A stretch of 64,000 bases of DNA from contig JABMOM010000009.1 of the NCBI GenBank assembly GCA_013204105.1, positions 1 through 64,000 on the forward strand, written 5' to 3'. A program made the translations under genes and the position numbers. Numbering within the stretch: position 1 is the first letter of the stretch; each line of letters starts with the position of its first letter. Under the pieces are notes generated by a model. That model had not been told where the DNA came from. It saw only the letters and a list, made by a program, of their open reading frames with translations, and ran no database searches. Source of the stretch: Flavobacteriales bacterium (GTDB taxonomy: Bacteria > Bacteroidota > Bacteroidia > Flavobacteriales_G > Salibacteraceae). Below are positions 29,492 through 51,418 of the stretch, in pieces.

Positions 29492-30376
29492 TTAAATCAA
29501 GTATAACAACTGTACAATGGGTAAGTAAACAAAGGATGCAAACATGAGTTTAAGCGCTGCAGAATCCGATTTGCTGTAAAACAAGAGGATGGCATACCAT
29601 GTGAAGCCAAGTCCTGCCAATGCAACCAAGGTCATAACCAACGCAGATCCCGTGGTAAAGATGATCGGGAAGAGGCTGATCGGTATCAGGAAGATGGTGT
29701 AGATTAAAATGTAAAATGCAGAGGTCGTGCTTTTTCCAGATGCAGACGGCATCAATCGGAAACCCGCCTTGGTATAGTCATCATCCGCCTTCCAAGCAAT
29801 GGCCCAGAAATGCGGAAATTGCCAAATGAATTGTGTAGCGAACAACACCCCTGGGATCAAACCAAAGTCATTGGTTGCCGCTACATATCCTAACATAGGG
29901 GGAATCGCTCCCGGGAAAGCGCCTACAAAAACAGCAATCGGCCCTTTCCGCTTAAGTGGGGTGTACACCGCTACATATAATATCAGCGCAAGCGTACCGA
30001 GCAATCCCGAAAGTGGATTGAGTCCAAACCAGAGAATGATCACGCCCGTTATCCCTAGCAGACCAGCCAGCATGAATGCTTCCGTTGCTTCCATGCGCCC
30101 ATCGGGAATGGGTCGGTCAGCCGTGCGCTTCATAAGCTTGTCAAAATCCCGTTCAATGATCTGATTGAAGGCATTCGAAGAACCGGTAACCATGAATCCA
30201 CCGACGACGAGGAACAGAATTTCTAGCCATACCGCATCGACAATGTCAACGGCAAAGAAGTAGCCCGTAAGGGCGCTGAACACCACCAATGACGCCAGTC
30301 TCATCTTGGTGAGCTGAGCATAGTCCGTGATCTTCGACTTCAGGCTTATGGCTATGGAGGCGGAACGCGCTTTCAT
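29492..30376 (-). CDS. ctaB: Protohaem IX farnesyltransferase CtaB (haem O synthase)
   Basis: UbiA-superfamily inner-membrane enzyme that attaches the farnesyl group to haem B to give haem O, the precursor of haem A for the oxidase. The first aspartate motif is in SSNAFNQIIERDFDKLMKRTADRPIP (about residues 66-91), and the second in AWKADDDYTKAGFRLMP. Eight or nine spans are visible. The ATG at 30376 gives 294 residues; a start at 30418 would add 14 residues unlike the family. It is the first gene of the oxidase block and diverges from the GldL/GldM-like gene. Confidence 0.95.
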   Translation of the reverse strand: MKARSASIAISLKSKITDYAQLTKMRLASLVVFSALTGYFFAVDIVDAVWLEILFLVVGGFMVTGSSNAFNQIIERDFDKLMKRTADRPIPDGRMEATEAFMLAGLLGITGVIILWFGLNPLSGLLGTLALILYVAVYTPLKRKGPIAVFVGAFPGAIPPMLGYVAATNDFGLIPGVLFATQFIWQFPHFWAIAWKADDDYTKAGFRLMPSASGKSTTSAFYILIYTIFLIPISLFPIIFTTGSALVMTLVALAGLGFTWYAILLFYSKSDSAALKLMFASFVYLPIVQLLYLI

Positions 30377-30472
30377 TCGAGAGTTGCAAATGTATTCAGC
30401 AGGCCCAAAATGCCGCATAGATTGTTTCTAAATTTCGGGCATCTTCGTGCTGAACCTAAAATACCAAAGCGC

Positions 30473-31507
30473 ATGGACAAAGCCACAAGGATCATTGGAT
30501 ACATTGGCTTGATTCCCCTCTTAATCGGGAGCCTCTTCAAAATTCAACATTGGCCGGGCGCTGGATTGCTGATTGTATTATCCGTGAGTCTATTGGTCGT
30601 GGCTTTCATGCCGATGTACATCGTTCATCGCATTATCAAGCGTACATCCACCCTTGGGATGATTGAGGGGATAATGCTCGGAGTCACGGGCATGTTTGTG
30701 CTGCTCGGAATGCTATTCAAGATCCAACATTGGCCTGGGGGTGGTGTGATGATGATCGTTGGAAACACGATGCTCGCATTCACCCTAGGTATCATGATCG
30801 TACGCGCGATTGAAGCGAAGGAGTACAAACAGAGTTGGAGCATGCTCGGATTCATGTTTGCCGTGGCCTTGGTTTTTTTCGGTTGGTCGCTGAATTGGAG
30901 CAGGGATTTTCTTGTCTCTATCCAGCACAACGATGCACTGATCCAGCGAAATGAGGATGCGATGATGCAATCCAATGCAGCACTTCGATCACTGCTTGAT
31001 CGCAATGATTCACTCCAGGCGGAATGGAAGGAAGTCTCACAGCACTCTGAAGCGATGCAGGATTACATACAAGACATTCAAAACCTGATCATAACGGGTT
31101 GTCTTGGACAATCACCGAGCATAGAATCTTATGCTTCAGCAAGCGATGTTTGGGCACAAGACAATTACGACATCCCTACCCAAATTCTGATTGGATACGA
31201 CCCCGCTAGTCCCATCGAAGATGAATATTCGGCCTACTCACTGCGAGTAAAACTGACTGAGTATGCTTCGACGATGAAAGGCTTGACAACAGATCTTGAG
31301 ACACAAACCATGATCGATTCCTTATACAGCTTCCAGGATCACACTTCGAATGGAATGGTGTACTCGTGGGAAGTCATGCATTTCTATCACGCTTCATTCG
31401 CCAGCGTGATGCAGACGCTTAACACGCTTCAGCTCGGCGTTGCAATGACCGAAAATCGCTTGCTCCATCAAACCTTGGAAACCCACTTGAAGACAACTGT
31501 GGATTGA
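30473..31507 (+). CDS. Membrane protein joining a GldL-like membrane part to a GldM-like periplasmic domain
   Basis: A 344-residue protein. The first ~140 residues hold four membrane spans and two copies of the motif (L/F)FKIQHWPGAG/GG, the signature of GldL-type proteins. A fifth span (MLGFMFAVALVFFGWSLNW) follows, then a coiled coil (about 150-205) and a C-terminal domain with QDNYDIPTQILIG, WEVMHFYHASFASVMQTLNTLQLG and TENRLL. The same layout occurs in the protein at 49670-50935. In GldM the N-terminal periplasmic domain has a comparable NYDIPT/W-x-F-x-x-x-P/LxxLQxDV arrangement (from memory of the family). GldL and GldM form the proton-driven T9SS/gliding motor. The start at 30473 is chosen; TGA overlaps the hemW ATG. 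Confidence 0.75.
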   Translation: MDKATRIIGYIGLIPLLIGSLFKIQHWPGAGLLIVLSVSLLVVAFMPMYIVHRIIKRTSTLGMIEGIMLGVTGMFVLLGMLFKIQHWPGGGVMMIVGNTMLAFTLGIMIVRAIEAKEYKQSWSMLGFMFAVALVFFGWSLNWSRDFLVSIQHNDALIQRNEDAMMQSNAALRSLLDRNDSLQAEWKEVSQHSEAMQDYIQDIQNLIITGCLGQSPSIESYASASDVWAQDNYDIPTQILIGYDPASPIEDEYSAYSLRVKLTEYASTMKGLTTDLETQTMIDSLYSFQDHTSNGMVYSWEVMHFYHASFASVMQTLNTLQLGVAMTENRLLHQTLETHLKTTVD

Positions 31508-32628
31508 TGTCCAGCATTTACGTCCATATTCCTTTCTGCAAACAGGCCTGCACCTATTGCGACTTTCACTTTTCTACGAATCAAACGCTTCGTGGTAAGC
31601 TCGTGGATGCCTTGTGCAGGGAGATCCACATGCGGAGCGCTGAAGTAGATGGGCCCATTCAGACCTTGTATTTTGGTGGGGGCTCTCCTTCGATATTGAA
31701 CGCGGAGGAACTCTCGAAGATTTTTGATGCATTGACTCAAGCTTTCAACCTCACGCAGCTTCAGGAAACCACCTTAGAATCCAACCCAGACGACCATTCA
31801 GGAGAAAACTTGAAACTGTGGCGTTCGCTCGGTATCGACCGCCTGAGCATTGGCATTCAAAGTTTCATCGAGCGAGATCTGCGTTTGATGAATCGAGCGC
31901 ACGACGTCTCTCAAGCGGAGACCTGTGTCCGTTCCGCAAGAGAAGCAGGATTCAATAGCCTGACCATCGACCTGATCTATGGTATTCCAGGTCAGTCCAT
32001 GTTGGAATGGCAAGGCAACGTGCAAAAAGCGTTGGCACTCCAACCTGATCACATCAGCGCGTATTGTTTGACCGTGGAAGAGCGCACGGCGTTGCATCAC
32101 CTCGTGGAAAACGGCAAGGTCATAGAGAAGGAGGATACCGTCATTGAAGACGAGTACCTCTATCTCCACCAAGCGCTAGAAACTGCGGGATGGCGGCATT
32201 ACGAAATTTCCAATTTTGGTGTAGCGGGAAAGGAAGCTGTACACAACAGCAATTACTGGTCAGGGCAATCTTACCTCGGCTTTGGACCGGCTGCCCATTC
32301 TTTTGATGGTCAAAGTAAGCGCCGGTGGAATGTCTCGAACAACGCCGTCTACATCCGATCGATCGAGCAGGGCGTAGCATACTGGGAAAGCGAAGTGCTC
32401 TCTGAACGCGATCGGAGCAACGAATTACTAATGACAGGATTGAGGCGTGCAGACGGTGTAGATTTGAATCTCCTTCCTCCTGCACATCGCAAAGCCATCC
32501 TAAGCTCCGTCGAATCTCTGACAGGTGGACTGCTAGAATCCTTACAGGTAGAAGGCGCTGTGATTACAATGGATGCCACGAAGTGGCTTATGGCCGATGC
32601 TGTTATTCGAGCATTGATGATCGCATGA
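31507..32628 (+). CDS. hemW: Radical SAM haem chaperone HemW (HemN-like)
   Basis: Opens YVHIPFCKQACTYCDFHF with the radical-SAM CxxxCxxC cluster motif (about residues 11-18). LYFGGGSPSIL and RLSIGIQSFIERDLRLMNRAHD follow, and the C-terminal HemN domain is present. The short N-terminus, lacking the residues before the CxxxCxxC that HemN uses for catalysis, favours HemW, a haem-binding chaperone for respiratory enzymes, over a true coproporphyrinogen oxidase. 373 residues fits HemW. The ATG overlaps the preceding stop (TGATG). Confidence 0.93.
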   Translation: MSSIYVHIPFCKQACTYCDFHFSTNQTLRGKLVDALCREIHMRSAEVDGPIQTLYFGGGSPSILNAEELSKIFDALTQAFNLTQLQETTLESNPDDHSGENLKLWRSLGIDRLSIGIQSFIERDLRLMNRAHDVSQAETCVRSAREAGFNSLTIDLIYGIPGQSMLEWQGNVQKALALQPDHISAYCLTVEERTALHHLVENGKVIEKEDTVIEDEYLYLHQALETAGWRHYEISNFGVAGKEAVHNSNYWSGQSYLGFGPAAHSFDGQSKRRWNVSNNAVYIRSIEQGVAYWESEVLSERDRSNELLMTGLRRADGVDLNLLPPAHRKAILSSVESLTGGLLESLQVEGAVITMDATKWLMADAVIRALMIA

Positions 32629-49669: not shown

Positions 49670-50935
49670 TCAGCTTCCGCTTGGCGGGCCAGAAGCCGTG
49701 GGCTGACTTAAGAGGTAAAGCAATACTTGGGTCTCTGCATTGCGAATGTCTAATTGCATCTTTGAGAGCTGAGAAATCACCGAACTCAACGGAATGTGGT
49801 AAAAATGGTAAGTAACCCAATCCATTTCATTCCCTCTGAATTCATACATCATGTTGAAATCAAAAGGTAAAATAGCCTCCATCTCATCTCTGATCACTGG
49901 GTCATAAGCTTGAAGCATTTCTCCTTGAAATTCCTCGAGCACGCCTAACAATGCATTCGCACTCCGTTCTTCTTGGTCTCCGAATAGGATGTGCGTGGGT
50001 ATGTCGTAGTTATCTTGCTTCGTCAAGGAATAGGTTTCGACTGCTCTGGCTTCGTCCAGAGAGATACCTTCTGTTTCAGCAATAAGGTGTAGTCTAAGAC
50101 CCTCAACCCTATTGATAGCCGTGCTAACGGCACTTTTAACTGCTTCACTTTCTGGTGATTTTTGAAGTTTTGCATAAAGCGCTGCATTGTTCGCAGCTCG
50201 AGTAGCGGAAGCATCCAATTCAGCGCCAACTAAGGAAAGTCCTCTGTTAAAATTTTCACTTCTATTGAAGCTCATCATTCCAAACACTAGGATCAGACAG
50301 GTCATTGCTACCAGTCCGCTTGAAAGCGTAATTGATTTGTTTGCAGAAGTCTTGTACTTTTTAAAGAAGTAAACGGGGACATAGGCTACGGCAAGGGCAG
50401 AGATTCCACCGAGAAGCATGACTGCCGCGCCAGGCCAATGCATAATCTTAAAAAGCACCCCAACGGTGGTAAGGGTCAGTCCGACAAAGCCAGAGATGTG
50501 CAACAAGTACTCATCGCTTGGTGATTCTTTCAGCTTATGCCAAAGCAACAACGGTAGATAGATGAGCGCCAGCACGCCGGCGCCAAGCACGAGCATCACC
50601 GCTGCACCGGGTAAATGAAGAAGTTTAAAAATCGTCCCCGCCAAGAGAAGAAAAGTAGAAGTCAGCCCGAAAGAAAATGCTGTTTTTTTCATGGTTACAT
50701 TCATTTCGGTTAATAATTCAAAGGTTTGTTGTTGGACCTGCTTTAAGCCCCCAGGTCCGAAGAGCTTGATTGTTTTGGCGAAGGCCTCTTCAAAAGAGCT
50801 GCCTCCGTCTATTAAATTTTCTATCGAGGTACACACGTGATCCAAGAGGTCGTCGTGCAAATCGTCAGATGCGACTCCGTGTTGCCTTATATAGGCGCTG
50901 ACGAGTTCGATCTGGGGTTCGTTCAATTCAGCCAT
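49670..50935 (-). CDS. PadR-linked membrane protein with GldL-like and GldM-like parts
   Basis: A 421-residue protein. Residues 1-75 form an acidic helical prefix (DDLHDDLLDHVCTSIENLIDGGSSFEEAFAKTIKLFG) of the kind that accompanies PadR regulators. Four membrane spans follow, with GTIFKLLHLPGAAVM and GVLFKIMHWPGAAVML, the GldL-type motif twice, then a fifth span and a coiled coil. The C-terminal domain has QDNYDIPTHILFG, WVTYHFYHIPLSSVISQLSKMQLDIRNAE and matches the protein at 30473-31507. In this copy the last segment resembles the end of the GldM N-terminal periplasmic domain. It overlaps padR by eight bases, so PadR controls it. A sensor or motor-like function is inference. Confidence 0.75.
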   Translation of the reverse strand: MAELNEPQIELVSAYIRQHGVASDDLHDDLLDHVCTSIENLIDGGSSFEEAFAKTIKLFGPGGLKQVQQQTFELLTEMNVTMKKTAFSFGLTSTFLLLAGTIFKLLHLPGAAVMLVLGAGVLALIYLPLLLWHKLKESPSDEYLLHISGFVGLTLTTVGVLFKIMHWPGAAVMLLGGISALAVAYVPVYFFKKYKTSANKSITLSSGLVAMTCLILVFGMMSFNRSENFNRGLSLVGAELDASATRAANNAALYAKLQKSPESEAVKSAVSTAINRVEGLRLHLIAETEGISLDEARAVETYSLTKQDNYDIPTHILFGDQEERSANALLGVLEEFQGEMLQAYDPVIRDEMEAILPFDFNMMYEFRGNEMDWVTYHFYHIPLSSVISQLSKMQLDIRNAETQVLLYLLSQPTASGPPSGS

Positions 50936-51278
50936 GGTAACTTGGATTTAGTGTGAATTTGTCTAGTAATCGGTTCATCGTGCTCGAGAACTCCCGAAAC
51001 TCTTGCACCAAATTGCCCGACGTCTCCGACCCGTTCTTGGTCAGCCTATAGTACTTGCGCACGCGCTTGCCGATGTTCACCTTCTCGGTGGTGAGTAAAC
51101 CATCCGCCTCTAAGCGGTGCAAGAGTGGATACAATGCTCCTTCGGTCAACTGGATTTTTCCATCCGTCGCCTCCTTCACGTGTTGTGTGATCTCGTAACC
51201 GTACATCCTCTCCTCTTTTGAGAGAAGGTTCAGCACGATCGTTTTGAGCGTTCCTTTGATGAGTTCATTCGAATACAT
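50928..51278 (-). CDS. PadR-family transcriptional regulator
   Basis: A 116-residue winged-helix repressor: LIKGTLKTIVLNLLSKEERMYGYEITQHVKEATDGKIQLTEGALYPLLHRLEADGLL (quoted by its extent, residues about 5-62) is the PadR core, followed by RVRKYYRLTKNG and a C-terminal dimer helix. The ATG at 51278 is chosen because the -7 box at 51283-51290 excludes the ATGs at 51293 and 51311. It probably represses itself and the downstream membrane protein through the dyad at 51273-51308. The ligand is unknown. Confidence 0.93.
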   Translation of the reverse strand: MYSNELIKGTLKTIVLNLLSKEERMYGYEITQHVKEATDGKIQLTEGALYPLLHRLEADGLLTTEKVNIGKRVRKYYRLTKNGSETSGNLVQEFREFSSTMNRLLDKFTLNPSYHG

Positions 51279-51308
51279 AAGGCAAATATACATCGGATCC
51301 TTATGTAT
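51273..51308 (-). promoter_or_regulatory. padR promoter within a dyad operator
   Basis: A perfect 9-bp inverted repeat, ATACATAAG (51273-51281) and CTTATGTAT (51300-51308), encloses the minus-strand -7 box TATATTTG (51290-51283). An additional half-site ATACAT is at 51288-51293. The right arm includes the padR ATG. The -7 box ends four bases before the ATG, so the mRNA would be leaderless or nearly so. Confidence 0.65.
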
Positions 51309-51418
51309 CAAAGAAATATTACCTAAGAATGTTAGGTATGCAAACTAACCACTTGATTATCAATGATAAAAAATTACATCCCATTCATGGCCGCCCCATC
51401 ACAGATACGTTGAACGCG

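Follow-up and report, generated by a model that had tools for sequence, protein, structure and literature searches.

The open reading frame P0001 (30473–31507, plus strand, 344 aa) encodes, as judged from sequence profiles and a predicted fold, a true fusion of a GldL-type membrane part and a GldM-type D1 domain. It probably belongs, as a member without an output, to a Bacteroidota family that uses joined GldL hairpins together with the GldM TM helix and D1 as a membrane receptor module, and not as a proton motor. The gene lies in a window of 64,000 nt, which is the whole stretch of DNA analysed (Flavobacteriales bacterium, Salibacteraceae; GCA_013204105.1, contig JABMOM010000009.1, positions 1 to 64,000). 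The GldL/GldM fusion family of Bacteroidota is apparently undescribed. No description of such fusions was found in the accessible parts of the literature searched, and no single paper combining GldL with PadR, or GldM with SpoIIE, was found in a search largely without subscription papers and without bioRxiv preprints.

A GldL/GldM-type fusion between ctaB and hemW

P0001 starts with two GldL-type hairpins, at residues 2–56 (30476–30640) and 60–114 (30650–30814), each with an FKIQHWPG motif as in GldL (residues 22–29, 30536–30559, and residues 82–89, 30716–30739). These are followed by a GldM-type TM helix without charged residues in its core (residues 121–139, 30833–30889) and by a GldM D1-like periplasmic domain (residues 144–343, 30902–31501), which is supported by profile and predicted fold; all these features are on the plus strand. 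The initial annotation of this DNA had pointed out the two motifs, a fifth membrane span and NYDIPT and HFYH blocks, and all of them are present, the span at about residues 121–139 and the blocks at 232–237 and 303–306. An alternative in-frame ATG at 30410 overlaps the divergent neighbour ctaB (protoheme IX farnesyltransferase, 29492–30418, minus strand), and the relatives of P0001 start at the equivalent of 30473, not of 30410. Downstream, the start codon of hemW (31507–32628, plus strand) overlaps the stop codon of P0001 (TGATG), and hemW is a neighbour rather than a functional part of the module. The gene is thus upstream of hemW and outside any gld cluster, as had been noted before: there is no gldKLMN context around it, and the canonical gldL and gldM of the same genome are found on a different contig (locus L042).

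Comparison with the GldL and GldM profiles, which had been proposed as a check of the fusion, gave Pfam matches above cut-off for both parts. GldL_N (PF22827) matches P0001 in two stretches (E = 1.9e-10, 41.2 bits, cut-off 24), and GldM_1st (PF12081) matches residues 153–335 with profile positions 17–192 of 194 (E = 2.6e-9, 37.8 bits, cut-off 25). The scores against the NCBIfam equivalogs for GldL (TIGR03513, 25.9 bits, cut-off 68.3) and GldM (TIGR03517, 23.1 bits, cut-off 180) are far under the cut-offs, so P0001 is a relative of both proteins and an ortholog of neither.

An AlphaFold2 model of P0001, built on an alignment of 56 family members (mean pLDDT 90.4, pTM 0.81), contains five TM helices followed by a helical domain with one small β-hairpin. 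All of the top 17 PDB chains found by Foldseek with this model are GldM or PorM (best E = 5e-6, probability 1.00). VIA-align gave Z scores of 22.6 to GldM (7sau_A) and 22.1 to PorM (7sat_A, 185 residues, 1.9 Å), compared with 9.3 for the next unrelated chain. Given these matches, the C-terminal part has both a GldM profile match and a predicted fold like that of GldM D1, which agrees with the resemblance to the N-terminal periplasmic domain of GldM proposed in the initial annotation. The coiled coil proposed between the fifth span and this domain corresponds in the model to two long helices (residues 144–176 and 179–210) at the start of the D1 part. No GldL chains appeared in the Foldseek and VIA-align lists for the whole model, which were filled by GldM, and the assignment of the GldL half therefore rests on the sequence profiles. 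By PDB sequence search, the nearest chains to P0001 are GldL (7sau, E = 0.007).

The proton glutamate and the missing GldM domains

GldL and GldM form an ion-driven motor with a 5:2 ratio, GldL5M2 (PMC8986121, PMC9389320), in which the glutamate E49 in TMH2 of F. johnsoniae GldL is strictly conserved and essential (PMC8986121). Anchored on the FK..HW motif, this residue corresponds to position +19. It is a Glu in 8/8 canonical GldL proteins taken from the fetched loci, the GldL of the window's genome included, compared with 0/253 family hairpins from N-domain, SpoIIE, stand-alone and second-gene members. Both hairpins of P0001 have a Leu at this position, and no acidic residue was found within the membrane core of the protein. 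A conserved charge in TM5 was considered as a substitute for the GldL Glu, but none is seen across the TM5 helices of the family.

The middle hairpin of three-hairpin genes has an acidic residue at +16 in 4/26 cases (e.g., L072, L078, L082, and L116). Being one helical turn from the position of the lost Glu, this residue is possibly a remnant of protonation or a return to it.

GldM contacts the GldK/N ring through its domains D2–D4. No match to these domains was found in P0001, which stops after D1, whereas the genome's own canonical GldM (L042) carries all four GldM domains. The missing equivalent of E49 and the missing D2–D4 together make it very unlikely, at the level of sequence, that P0001 is a proton motor. 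The initial annotation had read the single chain as a possibly proton-driven transmembrane device and had proposed to look for the membrane Glu. Having both motor parts, with motor folds, within one chain speaks for this reading, which nevertheless seems highly improbable given that the proton residue is lacking in P0001 and in all relatives examined, that neither the membrane core nor TM5 offers a replacement, that the parts for force transmission are missing, and that a 1:1 chain as a homodimer would give a 4:2 and not a 5:2 ratio.

Relatives with output domains and tandem pairs

The window also contains a paralog of P0001 (49670–50935, minus strand, 421 aa), in which a PadR-linked N-domain (residues 1–80) precedes two GldL hairpins, a TM helix and GldM D1 (GldM_1st, E = 2e-17; GldL_N, E = 6e-9). 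Its start is overlapped by a padR regulator gene (50928–51278, minus strand, start probably the ATG at 51278; PadR match, E = 7.4e-22). Two operator-like palindromes lie upstream of padR, palindrome 1 (TACCTAACATTCTTAGGTA) at 51320–51338 and palindrome 2 (TACATAAGGATCCGATGTA) at 51289–51307, the latter overlapping a Bacteroidota-type promoter (TATATTTG), and the whole padR-fusion operon with its palindromes spans 49670–51338. The palindrome pair (TACMTAA-N5-TTAKGTA-like) is conserved in the genus of the window and in relatives, and genome-wide the pattern TACMTAAN7AKGTA occurs at the two palindrome sites and at one other place. As the pair lies over the padR promoter, PadR is predicted from the sequence to autoregulate the padR-receptor operon. 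P0001 was also considered as a member of the PadR regulon, which was dropped because the pattern search revealed no operator-like palindrome at its promoter. P0001 has no N-domain and no adjacent PadR gene.

The link between PadR and the N-domain was scored in the fetched loci, with duplicates removed, as a PadR gene ≤300 bp upstream on the same strand. Such a gene is found for 69/77 N-domain proteins versus 1/57 hairpin or fusion proteins without an N-domain. The N-domain is ∼80 aa long with invariant D-H-x-C-x3-E and Thr positions. It was initially a candidate for a plain HAAS domain, which was not supported: Pfam HAAS (PF22564) gave no match, and an hhalign comparison with four HAAS-PspC sequences from Bacteroidota yielded a probability of 0.4%. 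The NCBIfam model 'permease prefix domain 1' (perm_prefix_1) matches 24/51 members (best E = 1.2e-8). Because this is the sole link to HAAS, we call the domain the PadR-linked N-domain and speak of a resemblance to HAAS. The N-domain also occurs on a different C-terminal part without a hairpin or D1 match (L071, 2242–3117).

Other relatives (L041, L036, L052, L058, L063, and L125) carry the module of two GldL hairpins and GldM D1 followed by a TM helix, a coiled coil and a SpoIIE domain. L041 is such a module-SpoIIE fusion on contig 7 of the window's genome (6388–8457; SpoIIE phosphatase domain, E = 5.2e-21, 75.9 bits, cut-off 25), which thus has one PadR-type and one phosphatase-type relative of P0001. 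The best NCBIfam match of a SpoIIE-type relative is SiaA (E = 1.6e-56, under the equivalog cut-off). With N-in hairpins, the N-domain would be cytoplasmic, D1 periplasmic, and SpoIIE again cytoplasmic after the sixth TM helix. All outputs would then be on the cytoplasmic side, which would fit what a receptor requires.

Some variants of these architectures were also seen. L059 (1708–3093) and L094 (1895–3271) combine GldL-type hairpins with a SpoIIE/SiaA-type phosphatase and have no D1 domain, and L045, L046, L105, and L112 encode proteins of ∼155 aa that consist of two GldL-type hairpins only. A 95% complete genome (G239) has a fusion of SpoIIE-type length (718-aa frame) and no GldM D4 match. 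Two stand-alone fusions (L024, 6087–7139, and L051, 3898–4983) face a neighbouring gene whose start, judged by eye, is PorP/SprF-like.

In 23 loci (L054, L055, L057, and 20 others) an N-domain gene is followed by a partner without an N-domain. By a hairpin HMM applied to the fetched loci, the first gene has three hairpins and the second has two in 23/23 of these tandem pairs; because the loci came from a P0001-led query and are related by phylogeny, they do not represent independent events. Each gene of a pair also encodes one GldM-type TM helix and a periplasmic part, which in most cases, though not in every one, can be recognized as D1. Of the single N-domain genes, 50/53 encode two hairpins, the exceptions (L087, L091, and L093) lacking an N-domain-less partner downstream; in L038, both genes of the pair have an N-domain and two hairpins. 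A 3+2 heterodimer would match the ratio of GldL5M2, with five hairpins from GldL and two parts from GldM. We therefore tentatively suggest, with somewhat less than even confidence, that the tandem pairs are a covalently tethered copy of GldL5M2 without the proton Glu, a pseudo-motor acting as a receptor, in which the 5:2 architecture transduces a signal, and that P0001 comes from, or imitates, the two-hairpin subunit. P0001 shares the architecture of the second gene of the pairs and is itself stand-alone. The 5:2 logic cannot be carried over as such to the window, as its single PadR-linked paralog with two hairpins would form a 4:2 homodimer; P0001 together with this paralog would likewise total 4:2, not 5:2.

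Full-length fusions are common in the genus and family of the window among 100 relatives, and patchy beyond. An even draw of 148 genomes of the phylum, apart from the window's own, gave one strong full-length match (G103) and one weak match (G059). The named loci of the family are from Flavobacteriales, Bacteroidales, Sphingobacteriaceae, and Chitinophagaceae metagenome assemblies. An N-domain match is present in 6/6 genomes with a stand-alone copy (G000, G009, G014, G023, G045, and G220) compared with 35/100 overall (about 0.001 for sampling without replacement, the genomes not being independent). G059, with the divergent stand-alone copy L047, has no N-domain match; it passed the cut-off less clearly and is outside this count.

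In the unrooted tree of TM5 and D1, a branch with SH-aLRT 98 separates canonical GldM from the rest, and the stand-alone copies are scattered over the tree, with a long branch for P0001. P0001 was found in only 2/13 members of the genus (G000 and G009). In 10 congeners without it, ctaB and hemW lie next to each other in divergent orientation, which means that P0001 was either gained once or lost repeatedly. Between the G000 and G009 copies, dN is 0.094 and dS is 1.105 (dN/dS about 0.09), indicating purifying selection. P0001 is thus a lineage-specific gene under purifying selection.

Role of P0001 and comparison with known systems

The absence of the proton Glu, together with relatives that have PadR or phosphatase outputs, suggests that in P0001 a motor part has probably been turned into a membrane sensor, and the cytoplasmic signaling outputs on these relatives point to a receptor rather than a motor. 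In such a receptor, a periplasmic D1 dimer and the hairpin bundle might detect the state of the envelope, the PMF or the T9SS motor. A conformational change could then pass inward to the N-domain and PadR, thereby derepressing the self-regulated padR-receptor operon, or alternatively to the SpoIIE/SiaA-type phosphatase. P0001 might serve an output-bearing paralog as partner subunit or decoy, in the way that the second gene of a tandem pair probably does. Because P0001 has no output domain and no operator and lies ∼18 kb from the PadR operon of the window, this partner role is drawn by analogy. The sensing, the signal, the oligomers, the direction of PadR control and the partner of P0001 are the parts of the model that we infer.

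The homology of P0001 to both motor subunits could also mean that it belongs to the T9SS motor as an accessory or inhibitory subunit, whose hairpins enter the GldL ring and whose D1 pairs with GldM D1, thus tuning or braking the motor. A chain with two hairpins and one axle could complete a five-hairpin ring with GldL subunits, and canonical GldM with D4 is present in 28/30 fusion- or N-domain-bearing genomes tested. This co-occurrence is weak evidence, however, as GldM is common in the class (GldM or fusion match in 85/100 genomes). Moreover, paralogs have PadR or phosphatase outputs, P0001 is outside the gld cluster, and 10/12 congeners have the canonical GldM neighbourhood genes but no P0001, all of which makes an accessory motor subunit rather unlikely.

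It is less likely still that P0001 senses through a partner outside the family, e.g., an unlinked kinase or sigma-factor regulator, so that the PadR link of the paralogs would be irrelevant. The lack of an operator at its promoter and the scattering of the stand-alone copies over the tree, in unrelated neighbourhoods, would fit such a partner, but the stand-alone copies co-occur with N-domain proteins in all six genomes, and genes with the architecture of P0001 form operons with N-domain genes in the 23 tandem loci. Highly improbable, like the proton-driven device, is a recent, decaying duplicate without a role: the lineage-specific occurrence, with ctaB and hemW adjacent in the 10 congeners that lack the gene, and the long branch would be expected from it, but the frame is intact, dN is low relative to dS compared with the ortholog, and the site and motifs are conserved.

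GldLM reportedly shows no clear relationship by sequence to other ion-driven motors (PMC9389320), and the family may bear on the origin of GldLM and on the reason for its 5:2 ratio. A widespread family with motor folds and, in the tandem pairs, a 5:2 ratio but no proton residue would be a natural control that separates the role of the architecture from that of the proton. If its members are receptors, as we consider probable for P0001, an ion-motor module has been reused for signaling, and T9SS- or envelope-linked PadR and phosphatase pathways would be added to a phylum with poorly known regulation.

The N-domain genes resemble, by analogy of their linkage, the HAAS-PadR dyads. PMC11237479 describes these dyads as an alternative to two-component systems in which HAAS is joined to multi-TM sensors of various kinds, FtsX/MacB-type permeases among them. 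As in these dyads and in perm_prefix_1 proteins, the N-domain relatives carry a small helical domain ahead of a multi-TM sensor, the sensor gene comes directly after a stand-alone PadR gene, and the perm_prefix_1 match is weak but repeated. They differ in the GldL/GldM-derived sensor part, which is not named in the accessible part of PMC11237479, and in an N-domain without a Pfam HAAS match but with invariant D-H-x-C-x3-E and Thr positions of its own; P0001 has no N-domain. The SiaA-type SpoIIE/PP2C membrane phosphatases share with L041, L036, L052, L058, L063, and L125 the order of sensor half, TM helix, coiled coil and SpoIIE. Here, the sensor half of the relatives is the GldL/GldM module, and P0001 has no phosphatase.

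Compared with the GldL/GldM (PorL/PorM) motor, the family joins both parts in one chain with duplicated or triplicated hairpins, lacks the proton Glu, the long cytoplasmic tail of GldL and GldM D2–D4, and is found outside gldKLMN, many relatives carrying output domains. What it shares with the motor is the FKxxHWPG hairpin, the single TM helix followed by a D1 fold (Z 22 for P0001) and, in its tandem pairs, five hairpins to two GldM-type parts as in GldL5M2.
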